From contig NZ_CP074570.1 of the NCBI RefSeq assembly GCF_019900845.1, positions 2,852,001 to 2,916,000 of the forward strand: a stretch of 64,000 nucleotides of DNA, written 5' to 3'. Below the pieces are notes generated by a model that searched no databases, was not told the DNA's origin, and saw only the letters and a program-made list of their open reading frames with translations. How positions within the stretch are numbered: position 1 is the stretch's first letter; every line of letters begins with the position of its first letter. The DNA is from Paraneptunicella aestuarii (GTDB taxonomy: Bacteria > Pseudomonadota > Gammaproteobacteria > Enterobacterales > Alteromonadaceae). Made by a program: the position numbers and the translations under genes. Shown one piece after another: positions 5,627 through 61,532 of this stretch.

Positions 5627-6879
5627 TTCAACACTCTTTTCTGGCTACGCAGCTGCTCGAACTTGCCGGCAAGCTCTTGAGTTTCGGCGTCGATATTGTA
5701 TGCCGCTTTTTCAATGCCGATCTGATCTTGTAACACGGCCAGGACATTGTTACTTAATGCACTCCACATAAAGCTAATTGAAGCATGTGACTGTATGGAG
5801 ATTGAGTCATTCAGCAAGGTAAAAAACTGACTTTCAAATTCGCTTGTTCGCTTGTTAAGTTTACTATTTGGATCAATAGACGCCGGATATAGGCCGTATT
5901 CGTGAAAAATATGAGTTTGTGTTTTATCCTTATTAAAGAACTCAATGAGCGATTTCATTTTTTGCTTTCTATTGGCTTCACTCTCTTTTTTGTTCTTCGG
6001 AAAGGCAATAACATAATTAGAAGAAAGCCCCCTTACAGCATGCCCCTTAATGGCAGGAATAGCCGCAACACCAAGATTATCACCTAGTGCGCGCTTAAAC
6101 TCTCGATAGTTCCAATCGCCATCAATGGTGTAAGCAACTTGCCCATTAAGAAAATCAAATGAGTCGCAGCTTCTGCCACAAAACCTGATTAAATCTGCTT
6201 GCTCAACAATTTCTTTGTAACTTTTCAGAGCAGAAAGCATTGCTTCGTTGTTTAGTTTCAACGCCTCATTTGTCTCAATATTGCCGCCAAATGCATAGTA
6301 GAATGGCAAAAAATAAAATGGGGCTCGATACTGCCACGTAATGGCCTGTATGCCCTTTTCACTGAGTTGTTGAGCTTGTTGAAACAGTTCATCCCAAGAA
6401 CTAGCAGGGTTACTAACCAATAATTTGTTGTAGTAGAGCAACAAAAAATTACCCGTGGTTATGGGGTAGCCAAAATAAGCATCTTTCGAATTGCCTCGTT
6501 CAGATTGAGGAAAATTCTCTTTATCAATAGCCTGGAAACGATAATCCTGATGAAGTCCAAGAAAATCGGAAGGAACAATAACGGCGTCGGGCAAAATTTC
6601 AGCATCAGCGGCAAATAATAAATCGCCCTTAAGATCTTCCACACCAAAAAAGACAATCGACAATTCTTGCCCAAATTGATGTCGATACTGTTCATTAAGC
6701 GAATCAAAAGAATTGTAACCACCAAACGCAGACCACAGCACCAAGTTGTCGGCATGCCGTAATTCCGGTACAAGTATATCACTACGATATTCAGAGTCTT
6801 GCCCCCACACATTCAGGGAGAAAACAAAAAAAACAATAATAAGGATTGGGTGGTGCACTCTATAGGTAACTCCGTACAA
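5623..6879 (-). CDS. Periplasmic sugar-type solute-binding protein
   Basis: A 418-residue exported protein of the extracellular solute-binding family 1 type. A signal peptide covers about the first 26 residues (hydrophobic ILIIVFFVFSLNVWG). Typical features include YPITTGNFLLLYYNKLL, the WDELFQQAQQL helix, GQVAYTIDGDWNYREF and a VAAIPAIKG segment followed by ASSNY-like hinge residues. No ABC permease or ATPase gene is adjacent on either side. Instead it overlaps the hybrid kinase gene by four bases, so it probably delivers a ligand signal rather than feeding a transporter. Confidence 0.88.
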   Translation of the reverse strand: MYGVTYRVHHPILIIVFFVFSLNVWGQDSEYRSDILVPELRHADNLVLWSAFGGYNSFDSLNEQYRHQFGQELSIVFFGVEDLKGDLLFAADAEILPDAVIVPSDFLGLHQDYRFQAIDKENFPQSERGNSKDAYFGYPITTGNFLLLYYNKLLVSNPASSWDELFQQAQQLSEKGIQAITWQYRAPFYFLPFYYAFGGNIETNEALKLNNEAMLSALKSYKEIVEQADLIRFCGRSCDSFDFLNGQVAYTIDGDWNYREFKRALGDNLGVAAIPAIKGHAVRGLSSNYVIAFPKNKKESEANRKQKMKSLIEFFNKDKTQTHIFHEYGLYPASIDPNSKLNKRTSEFESQFFTLLNDSISIQSHASISFMWSALSNNVLAVLQDQIGIEKAAYNIDAETQELAGKFEQLRSQKRVLK

Positions 6880-7181
6880 CAGTAATCTGATATTCTGATT
6901 CTACTTACAAAGCGCTCTTCTTTTCCCTAGAACCTATATCCATGCTGTACGCTACCATATCACTTGAGCTATTACAGACAGCTCCAAAGTACCGCAAAGT
7001 ACCGATAGCCCACCCCTACCATTAACCGAAAAAGCTTTGCTCTCTAATTTTGCTCTCTAGAAATTAACTACAATTTGATGTTGCAAAAACGCCTTTATTA
7101 GATCCTAGCGTATTCTATTCATTTCGCTAAAAAAATTACTTATAACCGGCCTCGGTTGATTGATAATTATTCTTTTATGTT
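6880..7181. other. Intergenic region upstream of the binding-protein/kinase operon
   Basis: No gene is seen. Short direct repeats occur (AAAGTACCG twice near 6988-7008; TTGCTCTCTA twice near 7037-7060). A small stem AACCG/CGGTT with a GCCT loop lies at 7144-7157; read on the minus strand it is followed after a few bases by seven T residues and may end astE transcription. Confidence 0.4.
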
Positions 7182-8246
7182 CTACAGCGTCGTTGGCACC
7201 ACGGTCAGTAATGCACGTTGACCAATCTCAACATTCGCATTTGGGAACACAATAGCTTCACCATCTTGTTCTGCAACATATTGACGCCCCGACTCTTCAG
7301 CAAAAACAAAACCTCGTTGAAAATCAGCAAAATTAGGCACATCTTCGTCGAAATTCAACCTAAAATCACCTTTCGATTTATTAATCACTTGATTCACATG
7401 GTATATTAAAAACTTATCTGAATCATAGTCAGGTAATTGAAAAACGGGATTTGTCGCAAAATCCGTTAGCGTTTTTCGGGCATCGGCAAATCGACTCATG
7501 TCATTCTCACCAAAGGGATGAACCTTGCCTAATTCAACCGTAAAGGCATCAGCGCCAAAATGTTTACTACTAAAGTAACTAAACGTCGTGGTGGGAGAGT
7601 TAGACAATAATATGGTGTAAACACCACAAGCGCCCATAAAAGCAACTTGCTCGGGTTTTCTTGCAATACCGGGCGTAAAGGGATACACCGCAAACTTTTC
7701 GTTTTTAGAGTCACGAATCGCGGTATGAAGATCATAATGAAACCGCTCTCGAGCGCCCTGCTCATCTTGTTTATTGAGCGACGGCGCCATGAAAAAAGCT
7801 CGAACCTCTTGTTCCAACTTTGCAGCACGAACACGTTCGGCATTTTGAGGCACATCAGGGTTACTATGCTCTCCATCGAATAAACGATTCATATTCTCTT
7901 CAACAAAACGCTTCGCAATATCCATCGCTGGCAGGTTGCCAAAAATGACCATCAAGCGATGTACAACCCTCAGTTTTTCCGTCAGAAGTTGCTGCACCAG
8001 CTCGTCACAAATCTCGATAGGCGCGGTTTCATTACCATGAATGCCGCAAGAATAAACAATATCTTTATTACTGATAGTGGCAGGCTCAAAGACAATAATT
8101 CCCTCGCAAGGAACAATAACTTTAGTGCCATTATCAAGGATAAAATCAAGAGGTTGAGCAAACAATGCCGCTTGCTGACGAGATAATGAAAGAAAAGTGC
8201 CATTGGCACGTAATTGAGCAACTGTGTTTAACTTCTGGTCTGTCAT
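7182..8246 (-). CDS. astE: Succinylglutamate desuccinylase
   Basis: Zinc hydrolase that releases succinate and glutamate from N-succinylglutamate, the last step of the arginine succinyltransferase (AST) pathway. The 354-residue protein has the M14-like zinc site CGIHGNETAPIEIC (His and Glu ligands), a downstream HYDLHTAIR segment with the third ligand, and the catalytic FTVELGKVHPFG near residue 245. The other ast genes are not in the window, so astE is unlinked here. A promoter-sized gap separates it from glgP upstream. Confidence 0.93.
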   Translation of the reverse strand: MTDQKLNTVAQLRANGTFLSLSRQQAALFAQPLDFILDNGTKVIVPCEGIIVFEPATISNKDIVYSCGIHGNETAPIEICDELVQQLLTEKLRVVHRLMVIFGNLPAMDIAKRFVEENMNRLFDGEHSNPDVPQNAERVRAAKLEQEVRAFFMAPSLNKQDEQGARERFHYDLHTAIRDSKNEKFAVYPFTPGIARKPEQVAFMGACGVYTILLSNSPTTTFSYFSSKHFGADAFTVELGKVHPFGENDMSRFADARKTLTDFATNPVFQLPDYDSDKFLIYHVNQVINKSKGDFRLNFDEDVPNFADFQRGFVFAEESGRQYVAEQDGEAIVFPNANVEIGQRALLTVVPTTL

Positions 8247-8560: not shown

Positions 8561-11083
8561 TTAATCTACGTTACAAGGTTTCAGACGCCAGATCTTGTCA
8601 ACGTATTCTGCGATACAACGGTCTGAGGTGAATTTCCCCATATTCGCGGTATTAATGATTGCCGCTTTTGCCCAGGCTTTTTTATCTCTATACAACTTAT
8701 CCACGGCTTTATTCGCTTCCGAATAAGATTCAAAGTCAGCCAGGGCTAAATAGGCATCACCATGTTCCAACAAGCTATGTTTGATTGACGCTAACGCTCC
8801 CGGTTTACCCGGTGTGAAGTAATCGGATTCTAACCAATCCAGCACCGCTTTAATCTCTGGGTTCTTGTAGTAATAGTCATAAGGATTATAACCATTTGCC
8901 CACAGCTCATTGACCTGCTCGACGGTATTACCGAAGATGAAAATATTTTCATCACCTACTTCCTCAGCGATTTCAATATTCGCACCATCCAGCGTTCCCA
9001 AAGTAATCGCGCCATTTAGTGCCAGTTTCATATTTCCTGTACCAGAGGCTTCTTTACCTGCTGTGGAGATTTGTTGAGAAACATCAGCAGCCGGGATCAT
9101 TTTCTCTGCCAAACTCACTCTGTAGTTAGGCAAGAACACAACCTTCAATTTATGGTTAACGCGGGTGTCGTTGTTAACTTTCTCGGCAACCTTGTTGATG
9201 GCATAAATAATGTCTTTCGCCAACTTATATCCCGGTGCAGCTTTAGCTCCAAACAGGAATACACGAGGATGCATATCGTATCCCGGATTTTCCAGTAAGC
9301 GCTTATACAAAGCCATAATGTGCAACAGATTTAAGTGCTGGCGCTTATATTCGTGCAAGCGTTTAATCTGAATATCAAAGATGGCATCAGGACTGATTTC
9401 AATACCGGTCAGCTTCATCACTTCATCAGCCAATGCCACTTTGTTCTGACGCTTGATACCCATAAATTGCTCTTGGAAAGCCGGATCATCAGCATATTTG
9501 CCCAGCTCTCTAAGCTTGTCTAAATGTAGCGGCCAATCATCCCCTATTTTACTGTCGATAAGCTTCGATAATTCAGGGTTACATGCCTTCAACCAACGAC
9601 GTGGCGTAATACCGTTAGTAACATTAGTAAATTTAGTCGGCCAGATTTCGTTAAATTCAGGGAACAAGTCTTCTTTCACCAACTTGGAATGGATTTCCGC
9701 CACACCGTTTACCGCATAGGAACCAATAACGCTCAAATGCCCCATGCGAACCATTTTCTCGCCGCCTTCTTCAATAATAGACAGCTTGGATTTAATACCC
9801 GGGTTATTCGGCCAACGAGCGTCCACTTCATCCATAAAACGTTGGTTAATTTCGTAAATAATTTCCAGATGACGCGGTAATACATGTTCCATCAAACGCA
9901 CAGACCACTTCTCTAGCGCTTCTGGCAATAAAGTATGGTTTGTATAGGCAAACACTTTGGTTGTAATGTTCCAGGCTTTGTCCCAGTCCATTTCCGCACG
10001 ATCAACCAGAATACGCATTAGTTCAGGAATGGCGATTGCCGGGTGAGTATCGTTTAGCTGAATAACAACCTGATCAACGAAACGGCTCCAGTCATCACCA
10101 TGAGCGCGCTTATATCGACGGATAATGTCTTTTAAGGAACAAGCACAGAAGAAATACTGCTGGATCAAGCGCAGCTCTTTACCGGCATGTGTTTCATCAT
10201 TGGGGTATAACACTTTGGAGATGGTTTCTGCTTTTACGTTCTCGGCATGCGCATCCAGATAACCACCTGCGTTAAATACGTCCCAGTTAAAATAATCGGA
10301 AGCCTGACTTTCCCATAGGCGAAGTACGTTAACCGTATTACCACCATAACCAACAATAGGAATATCCCAAGGCAATCCTTTTACGATCAATCCAGGGTGC
10401 CACTCTTTCTGAATGCGTCCGTCATGGCCATATTTGGTTTCGACATAACCATACAAGGGAATTTCCTGAATCGACTCAGGGCGGCAAATCTCCCAAGGGT
10501 TGCCATAGTCACGCCAGCTATCAGGTCGTTCAATTTGAGCACCGTTTTGGATCTCCTGGCGGAATAATCCGTGTTCATAATGCAGCCCGTAACCTAATGC
10601 TGGCAACTCCATAGTCGCCAAAGAATCGATATAACAAGCAGCCAAACGCCCCAAACCGCCATTACCCAAGGCCATGTCTGGTTCGCCTTCCATCACATCG
10701 GTCAGGTTAATACCCAGCTCATGCAATGCTTGTTCAGTCGCATCAAACATACCCAGGTTATGCAGGTTGTTTGACATTAAACGCCCCATCAAATACTCGG
10801 CAGAGAAGTAATGAACAGCACGAGTGTCGTTAAAATAATGGGTCTTTTGAGTTTTTCTTAATTGCTCAAGCACTTGCTCATTAATTGCTGCGCAAGTCGC
10901 TTTCCACCATGCATGGTTGTTAGCCTTATTTTCATCTGTACCTAACGTACAATGCAGATGGTTTACGATGGATTCTTTTATTTTGTCTTTGGTCAACGAC
11001 GCAGCCACCATTGCGCTTTTTTTGGATGCTTTCTTGCTATCACCTTTTGATGAGCTTGCAGATTTATTCTTATTCGTTGGCAT
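8561..11083 (-). CDS. glgP: Glycogen phosphorylase
   Basis: Releases glucose 1-phosphate from alpha-1,4-glucan with pyridoxal phosphate as cofactor. The protein is about 840 residues, near the family norm. The PLP lysine sits in [20 protein letters not shown] near the C-terminus, and the N-terminal [18 protein letters not shown] and [14 protein letters not shown] segments are typical. An ATG at 11083 is preceded by GAGGG at a good distance; a GTG at 11101 in the same frame has no such site, so the later start is chosen. The first 25 residues are an unusual Lys/Ser/Ala-rich extension before the catalytic core. pgm lies upstream on the same strand. Confidence 0.96.
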
Positions 11084-28227: not shown

Positions 28228-28815
28228 TTATATCTCATCAAGCCAGCTTTTCCAAAGCGTTAGATATGGCAGCAACCTATAGTGACTATGCAGCGTTTTA
28301 GGAAGAACAATGGGCTCTTCATCATTAACGGGGGACACAGGCATTAATTAAACTGATTTTGCGAAGATCATTTAATGGAGCAATACCCATGTCCCACGCA
28401 GGTGCCATTTTAGGCATAAAAGAATTAATAATTGAAGAGGTCTTTAGACATGACAGCATTGATGTTTGGGCGAGGCCGTTCAACAGAACGAACTGTAAGC
28501 ATTGTGATAGCAACAGGTTAAGGATAAAAGCCACACACAAGAGAACCATCAAGCATACCCGCCAGGGTAATCAGCTGATGACCTTGCACCTGAAAGTGCC
28601 AAAGTATCACTGCTTGGACTGTGGGCGTTATTTCAGGCATCAATTTAAAGGCATTCTACCGCGGTTTCGGTCTTCTGAAGCTTTTCGACTAGAAGTCTTT
28701 GAAGCGCATCACGAAGGCGTAACGCAACGTAAAATTTCACGGATTCACGGCATTAGTCCTGCGACCGTTGAACGCTGGTATCAGTCTTTGATTAATCAGA
28801 AATACAAGGAAGTCA

Positions 28816-28836
28816 GGCTCTTCATCATTAACGGGG
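28816..28836 (+). repeat. Internal 21-base copy of the ISL3 left end
   Basis: The first 21 bases of the left terminal repeat (28313-28333) recur exactly at 28816-28836, inside the transposase gene, precisely where its reading frame changes. Confidence 0.8.
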
Positions 28837-29432
28837 CGCACTTGTCCTCGAATATTAGGCATTGATGAACACTTTTTCACCAAGAAGAAAGGGTACGCCA
28901 CAACCTTTGTTGATTTGAAAAACCATCGAGTCTTCGATGTTAAACTGGGACGTTCAGAGCCAAGCTTGAGCCGCTATCTAAAAAGGATGCAGGGACGTGA
29001 GCAGGTTCAGATAGTCGTCATGGATTTATCCGAAACCTATCGTCGAATTGCCCAACACTACTTCCCTAACGCCATTATCGTGGCTGACCGTTTTCACGTT
29101 GTTCGACTGATTAATCATCATTTCCTCAAAGCTTGGAAGCAACAAGACGAACAAGGCCGAAAGAACCGGGGATTACTCAGCTTGATGCGTCGTCACGAAT
29201 GGAATCTGAGTGATAAGAGCCGAGTGAGATTACACGCATATCTGGATAATTATCCTGTATTAAAAGCGCTCTATGATGTGAAACAAAAGCTGAATCGGTA
29301 TGTTTTACTTAAAACGGTGAATAAGCGCCGTATGCAATCCAAACTACCGGGCTTTCTGGCATTGTTGGAGCAGATGAAAGCCAGCCCTCTCAAAGCGTTG
29401 GCGAACACCTTAATACCAATCCCATTAAAAAC

Positions 29433-30122
29433 CTAGCCATTTAACTGTGCCCATTTTCTGGTGCATAAAGAGATAACACGATGGGTATCTTTGACAAATG
29501 TATTCCAGGCGTCACTACATGCATCCACGATATCTTCATACCCTTCAAATATGCGATTGGATAGTGCGTTCTGACGAAGCCAACTCCATACCTGTTCAAC
29601 CGGATTCAGTTCCGGCGAGTAGGGAGGAAGCTTTAGCATACGAATATTATCAAACTGTTGGATCGTGTCCTCTGTATGCCATCCTGCGCCATCCATGATG
29701 ACGACAGCCATTCGCCCCGGTTTAGTACGTTCAGAAATCTGTTTCAAGTGCAATGTCATTGCATCCTTGTTGACCCACGGCGTTATGAGCGCTTCTGTTT
29801 CACCGGTTGCGGGACAGACAGCACCGAAAAGATAGGCATATTCAAATTGTTGCTGTTTGACTGCGCGTGGGCGACTGCCAGTTCTTGCCCATAAACGAGA
29901 GGTGGTATTTTGCTGACCAAAGCGAGCTTCATCCTGAAACCAGATATCAACATTGTTCAGAGGCAGATGTCCTGGACAAAGTTTGATCACATTAATCTCC
30001 AGTTTTTTTAAACTCTTCCTGAGCATTTTGCGATTGCTTTGGATGTTTTGAACGGCTGGAAATCCATGAAAAACCCCATTGATGCAAGAGACGGTAAATG
30101 TTGGACATTTTATAATCCACAT
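29433..30122 (-). CDS. IS630 transposase, catalytic part (OrfB)
   Basis: The DDE domain of an IS630/Tc1-type transposase. Three acidic residues are visible: DIWFQDEARFG, VVIMDGAGWHT and LPPYSPELNPVEQVW. The homologous part begins about 30009, where the first frame ends in a run of seven A residues; the preceding portion of this frame is probably not translated by itself. Likely made as a fusion with OrfA by frameshifting or slippage. Confidence 0.85.
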   Translation of the reverse strand: MWIIKCPTFTVSCINGVFHGFPAVQNIQSNRKMLRKSLKKLEINVIKLCPGHLPLNNVDIWFQDEARFGQQNTTSRLWARTGSRPRAVKQQQFEYAYLFGAVCPATGETEALITPWVNKDAMTLHLKQISERTKPGRMAVVIMDGAGWHTEDTIQQFDNIRMLKLPPYSPELNPVEQVWSWLRQNALSNRIFEGYEDIVDACSDAWNTFVKDTHRVISLCTRKWAQLNG

Positions 30123-30462
30123 TCAGATGGCTCGATATCCAGGCTTGGATATCGGCTCCCGTCAGTCTTCCCCCGACATCAGAACGACTATGATATTCAA
30201 TATAGCGAGATAGCTTTTTTATCTGTTCTGATGACAGCGATGCAGGACGACCGGGAGGAGATTTGGCATCCAGGCCATCAATTCCTTTATCCAGAAAAGC
30301 CGCTACCCATTTATTTACACTTGCCCTGCTGACCTTAAGTGTTCTAGCTATTTGTGCTTTGTTCATTCCTTCACTGTAATGAGCCAATGCAAGTAACCTG
30401 ATCCTTTTAGCTGCGTTAGTTTCCTTTTTGGAAAGCGCTGTGAAATCTATCTTTTTTAGCAT
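29992..30462 (-). CDS. IS630 transposase, DNA-binding part (OrfA)
   Basis: A 156-residue frame with paired helix-turn-helix domains: MNKAQIARTLKVSRASVNKW and a winged second unit around SNIYRLLHQWGFSW, separated by the GRPASL linker. It terminates just after the A7 tract at 30003-30009 and overlaps OrfB, whose frame is offset by one base. Confidence 0.85.
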   Translation of the reverse strand: MLKKIDFTALSKKETNAAKRIRLLALAHYSEGMNKAQIARTLKVSRASVNKWVAAFLDKGIDGLDAKSPPGRPASLSSEQIKKLSRYIEYHSRSDVGGRLTGADIQAWISSHLNVDYKMSNIYRLLHQWGFSWISSRSKHPKQSQNAQEEFKKTGD

Positions 30463-35040: not shown

Positions 35041-35691
35041 AAAAGCACAGCTTAAAGAGCCCGTAGTCTACATCATTTTTTACTCACAATAACATCAATT
35101 ATCGGTTTAACTGAGCAATTAACCAACAATCAAGCAAAGACCAACACATCAGCGGTTTACGTTTTACCTCAGCCAGTTACATAGGGTTATCGTAAATTAA
35201 GCGTCTCACTCAATAATGCGCCATCATTTTGTACATTAAGAGCAAGGAATAACGATCATCAACTAATTGCATTTCTGTATCGGCAGCGCATTCGCAAACA
35301 TGAATAATTTTAAAATTCAGTTAGTTATTACGCAACATAACTTCACATTGACAAATAAAACCAACCTTAAAAATGAAAAACACACCTTTCAAATATGCAC
35401 ACCTGAACATCCAGTTTTATTGAACCATTAAGAATTCATTAATTAATTTTACCCTGTCGGTCATTTAAGTAAAAAGCAAACAAATTTTAAGCGTATAGAA
35501 AACTGAAATTAAATCTTTACCAAATAAAAAAATTTCAAATATAAGAAAAAACAACTTATATTATATTTTAAATACAACTAGCTACTTCTAAACCACTTCC
35601 CTGTGAGCTATAAACTAAGCTAGCCCCCATTTAACTCTATTTACCTTCCAACCAAAATTATTTTTATTATTATAAATCAACAGGTTGTCAG
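35041..35691. other. AT-rich intergenic region
   Basis: About 650 strongly AT-rich bases with no supported gene, RNA or repeat. It lies between the Lar-like gene and the terminal gene of cassette A. Confidence 0.5.
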
Positions 35692-35898
35692 TTATCCATT
35701 AGTATCATCTGAATTGGGATCAGGTTGTTTTGAACCAGACTGCGGTACAATAACCCCTCCCTCTTTATATATTGAAATAACTTTAAATTTAAATGAATCC
35801 AGCCAATTATCTTCTGCTGCGGCTTCGGGAAGCGCAAACAAACTTGAAGCAAAAACAGTAACAAATAGTGGAGACTTAATTTTATTTAGTAATTTCAT
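35692..35898 (-). CDS. Secreted peptide of cassette A
   Basis: A 68-residue precursor from the ATG at 35898, which has AGGA five to six bases upstream; an ATG four codons earlier supplies that AGGA. A signal peptide spans about 1-28 (LFVTVFASSLFALPEAAA), leaving a mature peptide of about 40 residues with a hydrophobic KFKVISIY patch and a polar Pro/Ser/Asp/Asn-rich end. No cysteines. It follows the membrane-protein gene after 79 bases on the same strand. The equivalent gene ends cassette B. Family not recognised. Confidence 0.6.
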   Translation of the reverse strand: MKLLNKIKSPLFVTVFASSLFALPEAAAEDNWLDSFKFKVISIYKEGGVIVPQSGSKQPDPNSDDTNG

Positions 35899-35977
35899 AG
35901 ATTTCCTCATAATTTAATTTCAGGGTAAATACACCCGAAATAATTATGGAAGAAGTATGAAAACTTATCTAATTAAA

Positions 35978-36652
35978 TCACACTTTAACAATGTGATTTG
36001 ACTGCATAAACTTGTAGCTTGTAGCCAATATGGATGCATGCTCAAGGATATTAAAATATGCTTTAAATGTAGGAGCAGCATCATAAACATGACGAGCTTG
36101 TAAAAAGAAATACTCGGTTAATGAATGAACATCGTAGATACCATATTGGGCATAATGCCCTTTTATTGACTCGAACTGGAACAAATATTCAAACAAATCA
36201 ACTAAAACAGGAAGGTCTTCTATATGACGATACCAATGCTCAATAAAAGACATCATTGTGACAAACAGGTACACCGCATAGATGCCAACCAATAAAAAAT
36301 CAGCCCGGGTTATACAATATTGCTTGGCATCAAAACTTCCGCGTTGGAAGTTCTCCCAATAACTGAGGAGAGGAATTTTAAAAATAATGAGTAAAACAGT
36401 GGTTACATCAATGAATATATAAGTAGGATAAAAAACCATTGGCCGATTGCCTCCAAGCCAATGCATTAGCACAACCTCTAACAGCCTCATCGCTATTATG
36501 ATGATGATAAGACTATATATGTTGATGTGCTGACGATTCTCATAGACAGCCCACAACCCGACGGCAATAAATAATGAGTCGAGTAGTGGATCGTTACCTA
36601 TGTTTGTATATGTAAGAAAAGATGCGAGAAGAATTACCGCAAATCTTATCAT
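35978..36652 (-). CDS. Polytopic membrane protein of cassette A
   Basis: A 224-residue protein with about five to six membrane helices. Notable segments: LDSLFIAVGLWAVYENR, RLLEVVLMHWLGG and SFIEHWYRHIEDLP followed by VDLFEYLF. The last matches by eye the FEYLVRHLFDF ... NSFEYM stretch of the membrane protein at 60067-60777 (RH, D and FEY spaced similarly). Its start overlaps the regulator stop by four bases (ATGA). No catalytic motif or known family recognised. A sensor, processing enzyme, exporter or immunity protein for the adjacent peptide are all possible. Confidence 0.7.
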   Translation of the reverse strand: MIRFAVILLASFLTYTNIGNDPLLDSLFIAVGLWAVYENRQHINIYSLIIIIIAMRLLEVVLMHWLGGNRPMVFYPTYIFIDVTTVLLIIFKIPLLSYWENFQRGSFDAKQYCITRADFLLVGIYAVYLFVTMMSFIEHWYRHIEDLPVLVDLFEYLFQFESIKGHYAQYGIYDVHSLTEYFFLQARHVYDAAPTFKAYFNILEHASILATSYKFMQSNHIVKV

Positions 36653-36942
36653 TTGATGCCAAGTTGCTTTAAGATCGCCGTTCCATAACGGGATCGCCTT
36701 ATCAGATCCTTAATATCATTCCTTAGTTCTTTAGCAACTTCAAGTCCACAATAGGTCCAAATAGCCATGACAAGCTCCATCGGTGCCTGCGATTCCCCTA
36801 ATCGGTAACGATATAAGGACTTCTCGTCCAAATCAAAATAGTCACAAATTTCTTTGTATGATTTACCCGATCGTGCAATCGCAGCTTCGATGGCTTGACC
36901 GTAGGCAACCGCAAGGATGTTATCTTTACCTTTTCTAGCCAT
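36649..36942 (-). CDS. Helix-turn-helix protein of cassette A
   Basis: A 97-residue protein with a Cro/CI-like helix-turn-helix (SYKEICDYFDLDEKSLYRYR, about 27-46) and a helical tail. GGAAG lies nine bases before the ATG. The tail MAIWTYCGLEVAKELRN then DLIRR shares the spacing A-x-W...C...A-x-E...L-I-x-R with the regulator of cassette B. It is divergent from another helix-turn-helix gene at 37086; a palindrome lies between them. Confidence 0.72.
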   Translation of the reverse strand: MARKGKDNILAVAYGQAIEAAIARSGKSYKEICDYFDLDEKSLYRYRLGESQAPMELVMAIWTYCGLEVAKELRNDIKDLIRRSRYGTAILKQLGIK

Positions 36943-36997
36943 TTTAGCTTACTTCCAATTATTTAATTATAAATTTTTTGCGATCTTATAACAATCA

Positions 36998-37011
36998 GGG
37001 CAACTTTGCCC
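36998..37011. promoter_or_regulatory. Candidate operator palindrome
   Basis: GGGCAA-CT-TTGCCC, a six-base dyad in the divergent region between two helix-turn-helix genes. Placement suits a regulator site; no direct proof. Confidence 0.4.
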
Positions 37012-37085
37012 GATTTTCTTTGATACTTTGCCAATGTTGTTCAATTACGTTTTCAATACGTGCAATTAGAAGGTTCAAAACAGTA

Positions 37086-37355
37086 GTGTACATTAAAGGT
37101 TCAGATTTGCGTAAGATGAGATTGCAGGCCGCCATGACCACTGTGAAAATGGCTCAGTTTGCCGATGTAAGAACTCGCAAAACGTACGAAAACTGGGAAA
37201 AAGGTGTAGGTTCTCCTACAGTTAACCAGTTCATAGCAATGGCAACGGCTTGCGGTTATAGCCCGCACAGTTTGATTAGGCAGTATATAGAACGCGCCAA
37301 TCATAAAACTGAAGTTGACTATAATGTTGCGGCATTAAAAGCAGAAGAAGCCTAA
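37086..37355 (+). CDS. XRE-like helix-turn-helix protein
   Basis: An 89-residue DNA-binding protein from GTG 37086 (AGAAGG upstream). The domain reads LRKMRLQAAMTTVKMAQFAD then RKTYENWEKGVGSPTVNQF, a standard XRE fold with a WEKG end. Longer in-frame starts upstream would add residues out of character with the family. It is divergent from cassette A and may regulate it. A hairpin follows the stop. Confidence 0.65.
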   Translation: MYIKGSDLRKMRLQAAMTTVKMAQFADVRTRKTYENWEKGVGSPTVNQFIAMATACGYSPHSLIRQYIERANHKTEVDYNVAALKAEEA

Positions 37356-37837: not shown

Positions 37838-37929
37838 TGGCGGAGAGGGAGGGATTCGAACCCCCGGTAGGGATAAACCTACGGCTGATTTCAAGTCAGC
37901 TGCATTAAACCGAGCTCTGCCACCTCTCC
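37838..37929 (-). tRNA. tRNA-Ser (TGA)
   Basis: A 92-base class II tRNA with encoded CCA. Loop CTTGAAA gives anticodon TGA. Acceptor GGAGAGG pairs with CCTCTCC; long variable arm. As in E. coli (serT), it lies beside yccA. Confidence 0.96.
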
Positions 37930-58188: not shown

Positions 58189-58467
58189 TTGTTTGTCAAT
58201 CTCGTGCCAAAGAAAAACTCACCGAAGAAAAAAGACAAGTCTGAAAAAGAATTAGATAAGGTCGCAGCTGTAGAAATTAAGCGCCACGTAAAGTCCCTTA
58301 TGGCACTTAAAGGTATTAACTACAAAACATTAGCCAAGCTTCTATCTGCATATGGACGCCCTATTACAGAACAAAGTTTGCGCAACAAAATAAGTAAAGG
58401 CTCCCACCGAACAACTTGGTACTGGGATCTACTTAAAGCCATTGAATCGAAAGAAGAAGATGAGTAA
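58189..58467 (+). CDS. DUF6471-like small DNA-binding-type protein
   Basis: About 87-92 residues, depending on whether TTG 58189 or GTG 58204 is used. After a Lys-rich start, VKSLMALKGINYKTLAKLLS then ITEQSLRNKISKG gives a helix-turn-helix-like unit that resembles DUF6471. Possibly a small regulator. It converges on a small membrane protein gene. Confidence 0.6.
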   Translation: MFVNLVPKKNSPKKKDKSEKELDKVAAVEIKRHVKSLMALKGINYKTLAKLLSAYGRPITEQSLRNKISKGSHRTTWYWDLLKAIESKEEDE

Positions 58468-59721: not shown

Positions 59722-60066
59722 ATGCTGAATCCGGTAGCAAAAAAGTTCACTAGTACAAATGAGTTACTTAAATTATTAAGTGTAGAGAATATGACTGTTA
59801 AAAAGAGCAATAATAAAACACATGTCGCTCAATCGGGCGTTTTGAAAAAATTAAGATTAAACTCCGGGATGACACAATTAGATCTGGCTACAAAACTTGA
59901 AATCAGTCGGGAAAAGATTGTTGCTATTGAAAATTGTTATCTTGCCACAATGCAAGAACTGGAAAATGAAATCATTGCCTCTTGGTGGCGTATCTGTAAG
60001 CCACAAGCCGAAGAAGATACCAAGAGTGAGTTCAGGAAACTTATTGATAGGATATTTCCATATTAA
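59722..60066 (+). CDS. Helix-turn-helix protein of cassette B
   Basis: A 114-residue protein. An XRE-like helix-turn-helix (LKKLRLNSGMTQLDLATKLE then ISREKIVAIENCYL, about 43-78) is followed by a helical tail with ASWWRICKPQAEED then KLIDR, which shares residue spacing with the tail of the cassette A regulator. The first 40 residues are less ordered and a later start is possible. The next gene begins directly after its stop codon. Confidence 0.7.
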   Translation: MLNPVAKKFTSTNELLKLLSVENMTVKKSNNKTHVAQSGVLKKLRLNSGMTQLDLATKLEISREKIVAIENCYLATMQELENEIIASWWRICKPQAEEDTKSEFRKLIDRIFPY

Positions 60067-60777
60067 ATGTTTATAACCCCGTTTGCGCAGAAAGCTATTA
60101 GCGCAGCCTTAGCAGGGTTTTTCATCGCTGCAGGTATTCTTACCTTTGGTGATGCATCCAAATTTGATCGTCTTTACGTAGCAATTCTACTGGCTATTGC
60201 TGTTTATGTACGAAAAGATGTCAATCTGCTAGGTATTGTTTCGATTCTTACTTTAGAACGAGTTATTGACGAACTGGTGTGGTTCTCAACGCTTGAAGAT
60301 AATGGATTGAAATGGCTTATCTACTTTATCTGCGCGGCAGGATTAATACGTGAACGTAAAGCCCCGTGTTTTTGTTATTTATTCATCACTTACTTATTTT
60401 CCTTAGGAGCTGAAATCTACTGGATAGTAATTGGTTATCCATCACCTGAGATCAATTGGCACGTATTTTTAGTCGCCAATACAGTCTTAATTAGAAATTT
60501 ATTCATACATAGACCTTTTTGGACAGCAGAAAGATTTCCAGCTCATGCAGAACCTCTTAGACTCGATCATTATATCCATAATATTTTCACCTTCTTTATA
60601 TGGATAAACATTGCCATGATCTTTGAGTATCTCGTACGTCACCTATTCGACTTCAAAGATGTTCTTTATATTTATAATAGCTTCGAATATATGGTTCACA
60701 TTGTATCCACCATCCTTCTTTTTACACTCACAGATCAAAGTATAAAAACCTACAACAAAAACCTGATTAAAGTTTAA
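60067..60777 (+). CDS. Polytopic membrane protein of cassette B
   Basis: A 236-residue protein with about six to seven membrane helices. Segments KFDRLYVAILLAIAVYVRK, ERVIDELVWFSTLE and FEYLVRHLFDF with NSFEYMVHIVST resemble the cassette A membrane protein in order and spacing. Its ATG follows the regulator's TAA without a gap. No known family recognised. Confidence 0.7.
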   Translation: MFITPFAQKAISAALAGFFIAAGILTFGDASKFDRLYVAILLAIAVYVRKDVNLLGIVSILTLERVIDELVWFSTLEDNGLKWLIYFICAAGLIRERKAPCFCYLFITYLFSLGAEIYWIVIGYPSPEINWHVFLVANTVLIRNLFIHRPFWTAERFPAHAEPLRLDHYIHNIFTFFIWINIAMIFEYLVRHLFDFKDVLYIYNSFEYMVHIVSTILLFTLTDQSIKTYNKNLIKV

Positions 60778-60859
60778 TCTATTCAATACACTCATTACAT
60801 CGCATAATTATTTACGAGTGACATACGTCACATTTTTAAGTAGTTATGGAGTAATTAGT

Positions 60860-61027
60860 ATGAATAAAAAGAATATCATTAACGCTGTTTTTGTCGTTTC
60901 GTTAATCCTTTCTCACTCTGCTGTGGCAAGTAGTGGTAAAAAGAAAGACCCCGAGAATGCACCTTCATCTCCGATGATCGTACTTATGATGTCTTGGTTT
61001 AACTTAAATGAACAAAACAACGATTAG
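60860..61027 (+). CDS. Secreted peptide of cassette B
   Basis: A 55-residue precursor from ATG 60860 with GGAG nine bases upstream. A signal peptide covers about 1-23 (NAVFVVSLILSHSAVA), leaving about 32 residues that start SSGKKKDPENAPSS and hold a hydrophobic MIVLMMSWF patch and an Asn/Asp-rich end. No cysteines. Same place and layout as the peptide of cassette A. A hairpin follows. Confidence 0.6.
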   Translation: MNKKNIINAVFVVSLILSHSAVASSGKKKDPENAPSSPMIVLMMSWFNLNEQNND

Positions 61028-61444: not shown

Positions 61445-61532
61445 TGGCGGTGAGGGAGGGATTCGAACCCTCGATACGTTGCCGTATACACACTTTCCAG
61501 GCGTGCTCCTTCAGCCACTCGGACACCTCACC
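61445..61532 (-). tRNA. tRNA-Ser (GGA)
   Basis: An 88-base class II tRNA with encoded CCA. Loop CTGGAAA gives anticodon GGA; acceptor GGTGAGG pairs with CCTCACC; long variable arm. Its 3' end is duplicated 188 bases away. Confidence 0.96.

Follow-up and report, generated by a model that had tools for sequence, protein, structure and literature searches.

The two three-gene cassettes identified in the analyzed window, the whole stretch of 64,000 nucleotides taken from the single 4.91-Mb contig of the Paraneptunicella aestuarii genome, are probably self-contained peptide-signalling units, in which an autoinducer peptide would be sensed by an XRE regulator coupled to a membrane protein in Gram-negative bacteria. 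The gene order, the homology of the membrane proteins, fusions of regulator and membrane protein, the core motif of the precursor peptides, the tandem peptide units and a palindrome were observed in the cassettes or their relatives.

Cassette B is located on the forward strand (59722–61027) and has the composition assigned to it in the initial annotation. The XRE-family helix-turn-helix regulator (59722..60066, 114 aa) shows similarity with the Pfam models HTH_19 and HTH_3 below their cut-offs (HTH_19: E-value 2.8e-5, 24.4 bits, model cut-off 30.2); since relatives align only from approximately residue 25, its start may be the ATG at 59791. The gene of the B-type polytopic membrane protein, the proposed receptor (60067..60777, 236 aa), begins with the base directly 3' of the regulator stop, and the AlphaFold2 model of the protein (pLDDT 84.7) contains eight long helices. 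The putative secreted precursor (60860..61027, 55 aa) has a signal-peptide-like, apparently Sec-type N-terminus, directly followed by the core SSGKKKDPEN, which is common to relatives (cleavage site placed by eye). A -10-like box of the peptide gene, CATAAT (60803..60808), was noted by eye and is absent from the output of the consensus promoter scan; it is followed by the palindrome GTGACATACGTCAC (60818..60831), a candidate operator or, alternatively, a terminator-like hairpin. This palindrome has the same location behind the CATAAT box as the GTGGA-N6-TCCAC palindrome of relatives, in several of which CATAAT also stands 5' of the palindrome. As for the hairpin terminator claimed for the end of the cassette, the repeat search confirmed a perfect 12-bp inverted repeat with a 2-nt loop (61048-61059/61062-61073, forward strand), but there is no T-run 3' of it and it is not among the sites found by the terminator scan. 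A DUF6471 gene is located upstream of cassette B (58189-58467).

Cassette A occupies positions 35692-36942 of the reverse strand in the same gene order. It comprises a regulator-like protein (36649..36942, 97 aa) with a weak helix-turn-helix match (best Pfam E-value 0.024, below cut-off), an A-type polytopic membrane protein (35978..36652, 224 aa, AlphaFold2 pLDDT 87.4) and a secreted precursor (35692..35898) with the C-terminal core SGSKQPDPNS and the C-terminus SGSKQPDPNSDDTNG. A near-identical regulator gene was found at the same place in a genome of the same genus (L118). The precursor is 68 aa long here instead of 55. The -10-like box CATAAT (35943..35948, reverse strand) and the candidate operator GGGTGTATTTACCC (35923..35936, reverse strand) were located by eye; the arms of the latter are 4 bases long, below the 5-base cut-off of the palindrome listing. 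No inverted repeat with arms of at least 8 bases was detected at 35580-35720. Divergent from cassette A lies a second XRE gene, of the "KTYENWEK" type (37086..37355, forward strand, start inferred from relatives; ORF 36978-37355; Pfam HTH_31 5.2e-4, below cut-off). This XRE family has 20 genes in the host genome, the query included, some of them in clusters of two to four. Both cassettes do lie in AT-rich pockets, as was suggested earlier: GC content is 0.31-0.38 in the 1500-base windows holding them and 0.39-0.45 in nearly all others. Genes of tRNA-Ser (37838-37929 and 61445-61532) are found approximately 0.5 kb from cassettes A and B, the divergent XRE gene being counted with A. Transposase-like ORFs (by eye) occur at 28359-30462.

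The cassettes had been interpreted as the two copies, in one genome, of a unit with homologous regulators and homologous membrane proteins. The genome in fact contains eight membrane-gene copies, four B-type and four A-type, which rules out a simple duplication of two cassettes. Besides the two copies of the window, these are three relatives of its B protein (identities of 40, 30, and 27%) and three A-type paralogues of its A protein. At two places in the genome (L009 and L011), A-type and B-type units are approximately 3 kb or less apart; next to the B-type copy L012, neither regulator nor peptide was found.

BLASTP analysis found no significant match between the A and B membrane proteins of the window, nor between their regulators. 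By profile comparison, the check proposed in the initial annotation, the A-type and B-type membrane proteins are homologous. The hhalign score was 82% (E-value 1e-5) with four sequences in each family and 94–97% with larger alignments, namely 96% (7e-9) with 12 and 20 sequences, 94.5% (8e-8) with 28 and 22 sequences, and 96.8% (2e-10) for profiles A6 against A4, versus 0.2-0.4% in controls with two other membrane families of the host genome. In addition, the B membrane profile matches an A-type paralogue of the host genome (E-value 8e-8), and the A profile matches 14 of the 22 B-type proteins of a regulator-first sample (E-value ≤ 1e-3, referring to a small ORF set). A landmark common to both types, E-x-x-x-R, often followed by H or N, was recognized by eye in the C-terminal third. 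The same check separated the regulators. The B regulator belongs to the B-type regulator family (leave-out HMM E-value 7.5e-33 in a 3-sequence search; hhalign 99.7% over residues 25-114), whereas the A regulator gave an HMM E-value of 0.003 and an hhalign score of 3.5% (E-value 0.012) against this family. The weak alignment does span the regulator tail formerly described as shared, but the homology of the pair is not supported by these scores, and the BLASTP result together with the profile scores rules out that both regulators are members of one close family. The family profile was built from 60 distinct regulators, 66 of 72 loci having yielded one; the count of 67 of 72 obtained elsewhere in the analysis includes the window.

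Among the genomes sampled from the host's family, B-type membrane proteins were detected in 48 of 395 genomes and A-type proteins in 27 of 395, each in 12 of 52 genera, with some weak matches of one profile being members of the other type. The order-wide sample contained five B-type and four A-type genomes out of 394, all from the host's family, and the class-wide sample two of 185 for each type, namely the host genome itself and one genome of the same family. The cassettes are thus scattered through a single GTDB-style family, and the class sample yielded no carrier outside it. Carriers recovered by the regulator scan belong to Paraglaciecola, Aliiglaciecola, Aestuariibacter, a Pseudoalteromonas and unplaced Alteromonadaceae.

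The regulator and the membrane protein appear as a unit. In 61 of the 72 B-type loci, the two genes overlap by at most 10 bases or are separated by no more than 25. When only the regulator was used as the query, 33 loci were returned, 23 from Alteromonads and ten from elsewhere (hmmsearch E-values refer to a small ORF set, and the sample partly repeats the genomes of the membrane-first one); a membrane gene adjoined the regulator in 22 of the 23 Alteromonad loci versus none of the ten others. A core-bearing ORF was present downstream in 17 of these 22, and three of the five misses had less than 260 nt of contig left. The exception, L159, keeps the regulator and KTYENWEK genes, with no membrane gene found between them.

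Moreover, ten relatives in two arrays are fusions of both proteins in one chain. In the six fusions of L117, an N-terminal B-type-like regulator precedes a B-type membrane domain (the helix-turn-helix match is weak, E-value 0.002, in the fusion at 8937-9890). The other four, in L120, combine a different helix-turn-helix domain with an A-type membrane domain, and a split pair stands amid the fused genes, the identities being 66-73% for the regulator portion and 46-62% for the membrane portion. Of all observations, the fusions speak most clearly for signalling from the membrane protein to the regulator, and they make the membrane protein the likely sensor. A transposase-like ORF (by eye) is located within the L117 array (6530-7348).

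The neighbouring precursor gene is the likely source of the ligand of the membrane protein. The precursor core has the form G-x-K-x-x-(P/D)-P, and many precursors carry species-specific tandem units. An ORF with a signal peptide (home-made test) and this core starts no more than 420 nt after the membrane gene in 57 of the 67 B-type loci whose downstream sequence reaches at least 300 nt, compared with 1 of 67, 0 of 67 and 0 of 65 in controls; since the loci are related, such counts are not independent, and the core pattern, as well as the palindrome, was derived from the same loci in which it was counted. Five B-type and two A-type rows with less than 300 nt downstream were excluded from the precursor count, and the duplicate loci L075-L079 and the arrays L117 and L120 from both the precursor and palindrome counts. 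Six of the ten B-type misses have a secreted peptide by eye (L011, L056, L110, L113, L114, and L116); no precursor was seen even by eye in the other four of the 67 (L012, L014, L073, and L103). As for the A type, the strict test found a downstream precursor in 7 of 47 rows (6 of 45 distinct), with 2 of 47, 0 of 47 and 0 of 46 in controls. Three A-type rows are repeats (L119 of L059 and two of L121 of L070), the total of 49 rows thus representing 46 distinct ones. Several loci of the genus g122, which has large genomes, have instead an upstream ORF that combines KG-x-(D/H)P cores, five units of them in L136, with double-glycine-like stretches.

The repetition of peptide units takes two forms. 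Tandem related peptide genes were found in L015 and L043, four in each, and repeats within a single gene in several other loci: 19 units of (G/A)SKQVPP in L033, at least 29 units of TSRRTPP in L041, 15 units of SGK(M/L)KPP in L054, and the repeated unit KGTQKPP in L040. The 13 loci of the genus g15 share a mean regulator identity of 86% (minimum 74%) and a mean membrane protein identity of 46% (minimum 37%), and their repeat unit mostly differs from species to species. According to a wider locus set, the variation of the membrane protein is lowest in approximately the first 60 and the last 20 residues. The peptide differences proposed earlier between the cassettes are thus present in sequence, more strongly in the relatives than in the window pair, while a difference in specificity is a prediction. 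Five Paraglaciecola contigs (L143-L146 and L157) end approximately 170-280 bases after the membrane gene, and that of a sixth genome (L142) has a run of N within the repeats; assembly was probably disrupted by the array of peptide repeats.

Similar peptides were also observed beside other membrane proteins of the host genome. The genes of the membrane family designated type C (256-267 aa; L190:856-1944 and L194:211-1256) come directly after one for a secreted peptide with the C-terminus GGAGDPPGPIPN or GGGGGDPKGPVDPN, and hhalign gave only 0.3-0.4% between this family and types A and B. The locus L195 contains an ORF (1004-1645; genome positions 4612503-4613144, reverse strand) with eight NGPGVRP units approximately 17 residues apart and no obvious signal peptide; a small membrane protein, different from the A and B types, follows directly, and a KTYENWEK-type XRE gene is near. 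A repeated stretch in L191 (90-700) looks by eye like a CRISPR-type array.

The palindrome is likely the target of the regulator. Of 72 B-type loci, 33 contain the sequence GTGG-N8-CCAC in the 200 nt that follow the membrane gene, 27 of them in the strict form GTGGA-N6-TCCAC; single-base shuffles give an expectation of 0.04, and three control windows contained none. It precedes the detected peptide start in 28 of the 33 loci; a peptide was recognized by eye in four of the other five, and the palindrome of L014 precedes a second XRE gene. Many loci have a further copy downstream, in several cases before a KTYENWEK XRE gene (for example L036, L038, and L050). The host genome contains the strict palindrome twice, at two sites of the L009 cassette, one preceding the KTYENWEK gene and the other the peptide gene; the reversed pattern used as a control occurs at four sites, so the two sites are no excess and only their place is telling. 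The pattern was found in none of the 49 A-type rows (46 distinct; 200 nt examined), the GTGGA palindrome is absent from cassettes A and B of the window, and other loci have yet other palindromes in that place.

Evidence for the mobility suggested in the initial annotation was found on both sides. On one IMG/VR contig, the complete trio, GTGGA palindrome included, is flanked by ORFs that match phage families without assigned function and by an integrase (phrog_1, E-value 7e-33), and a second, closely similar contig was also returned. In addition, the A-type membrane gene of L011 in the host genome and a tail-protein gene (phrog_52, E-value 1e-114) are arranged tail to tail, with their ends 23 bases apart. 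On the other hand, genes that we take to be PrfC-like and RimI-like adjoin 25 and 19 of 94 loci, respectively (short flanks, overlapping samples); their recurrence indicates that one clade keeps a fixed place, which counts against frequent movement. The single B-type protein compared with plasmids and named phages gave no match.

The favoured signalling unit would operate as follows. The product of the third gene would be exported by the Sec pathway, and its conserved core (small-small-x-K/R-x-x-P/D-P) would be freed as a short peptide outside the inner membrane. The polytopic membrane protein may sense this peptide and, forming one unit with the XRE regulator encoded upstream (two chains here, a fused chain in some relatives), may pass the signal to it, the direction of signalling being presumed. 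By binding the palindrome located shortly after the -10 box of the peptide gene, the regulator would repress or otherwise control that gene, so that the peptide would act on its own synthesis as an autoinducer. Because the core, and often the palindrome, differ among copies and species, several circuits could run in parallel in a cell. Candidates for such private circuits are the eight A- and B-type membrane genes of the host genome and the unrelated membrane families with similar peptides. On a more tentative level, and with a likelihood somewhat short of even, Alteromonads may possess a new class of cell-cell communication, with Sec-exported, often poly-core pheromones whose precursors resemble that of the yeast alpha-factor, new polytopic receptors complexed with or fused to XRE regulators, private circuits, and rapidly diversifying ligand-receptor pairs.

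The main rival explanation, a bacteriocin-immunity cassette in which an antibacterial peptide would be accompanied by a membrane protein shielding its producer, with expression under XRE control, is considered rather unlikely. A regulator, a membrane protein and a small secreted peptide form a common bacteriocin layout, several single-core mature peptides have an aromatic, amphipathic-looking tail (by eye; for example L043 and L036), and the tandem peptide genes of L015 and L043 and the double-glycine-like stretches of some A-type precursors (L136) would also suit bacteriocins. However, the fusion of regulator and membrane protein fits a sensor and not an immunity protein, no exporter or C39 peptidase gene was noticed by the window cassettes in the listed ORFs, and poly-core precursors, with their short K/R- and PP-containing units, resemble released signals; the last argument rests on the relatives, since the A and B precursors of the window are single-core. 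The tandem repeats also admit a very improbable reading of the secreted proteins as structural or binding proteins with multivalent K-x-P-P repeats, such repeats being typical of adhesive or wall-binding secreted proteins. Against it, loci of this kind in other species encode a precursor of approximately 40-60 residues with only one core, which indicates that the repeat number is not essential.

Two further alternatives concern single components of the cassette. The invariant acidic and basic residues of the membrane protein (D34, E69, R149, D167, E187, and R191) could mean that it acts on the precursor as a maturation peptidase or as an exporter, the XRE protein then being a plain operon repressor; this is distinctly unlikely, since the membrane domain is fused to a DNA-binding domain in some relatives, no Pfam or NCBIfam peptidase or transporter family was matched, and Foldseek found no PDB match at E-value ≤ 0.001. 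The palindrome, for its part, may be a terminator or attenuator instead of an operator, with the genes co-expressed without autoregulation, which would be compatible with peptide sensing. GTGACATACGTCAC scores as a terminator-like site with a T-rich tail, and the sequence after the palindrome is T-rich in several relatives, but the arms keep GTGGA/TCCAC across genera rather than covarying, and copies also precede the second XRE gene in several loci, so that this alternative is judged unlikely.

Should the signalling interpretation hold, it would add a new branch to bacterial communication, a compact Gram-negative system of peptide, integral-membrane sensor, XRE regulator and palindrome. Dedicated receptors for peptide signals are characteristic of Gram-positive bacteria, and the quorum sensing known from Gram-negative bacteria mostly uses small molecules. 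The question is thereby raised whether species-specific short peptides serve as private signals among marine Alteromonads. The poly-core arrays would offer a natural series in which the joint change of ligand and receptor can be followed, and the units, being small and seemingly self-contained, could serve as orthogonal switches.

The membrane proteins fitted no known family in Pfam, NCBIfam or PADLOC: protein P0001 matched no Pfam family at E-value ≤ 1, and P0002 matched only DUF6755 (0.11, below cut-off). The helical AlphaFold2 models of the A and B proteins had a best Foldseek E-value of 0.54 in PDB, and the scores of a second structural aligner were within its stated background for helical bundles. 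Literature searches found nothing on the membrane protein or the system. A type II toxin-antitoxin system was rejected as the main reading, the regulator P0003 reaching 25.1 bits with the Y4mF-type model versus a curated cut-off of 71.65, and so was known anti-phage defence, no PADLOC family having been assigned to P0001, P0002 or P0016.

Among known systems, the Gram-positive RRNPPA family (Rap, NprR, PlcR, PrgX, AimR, ComR, and Rgg) uses cytoplasmic TPR receptors of peptides, and propeptides of AimR, NprR, Rap and PlcR commonly contain multiple copies of the mature peptide (PMC9765709). They resemble the cassettes in that the gene of an exported propeptide adjoins that of the receptor, an arrangement with its counterpart in 57 of the 67 B-type loci here, whereas the cassettes have an integral membrane partner and Gram-negative hosts, and Pfam found no TPR in P0001-P0004 and only helix-turn-helix models in the regulator P0003. 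Fungal alpha-type pheromone precursors and KEX2-processed repeat proteins contain many near-identical short units (PMC6339444). In this they are similar to the secreted precursors with many short units in cassette relatives; they belong to another domain of life, and the membrane protein showed no significant match with G-protein-coupled receptors in the Foldseek comparison. ToxR and CadC are membrane-bound one-component regulators with a DNA-binding domain tied to a membrane sensor. The ten fused relatives likewise have DNA-binding and transmembrane domains in one chain, but the cassettes use an XRE-type helix-turn-helix and a polytopic domain, and in the window the two parts are separate genes. 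In peptide quorum sensing of the Agr and ComQX types, a membrane protein gene adjoins a small peptide gene, a pairing also seen in the cassettes, which differ in having no AgrB or other Pfam membrane family, histidine kinase or response regulator. Finally, class II bacteriocin-immunity operons consist of a small secreted peptide, a membrane protein and a regulator, whereas the cassette family is distinguished by regulator-membrane fusions, poly-core precursors and Sec-like signal peptides.
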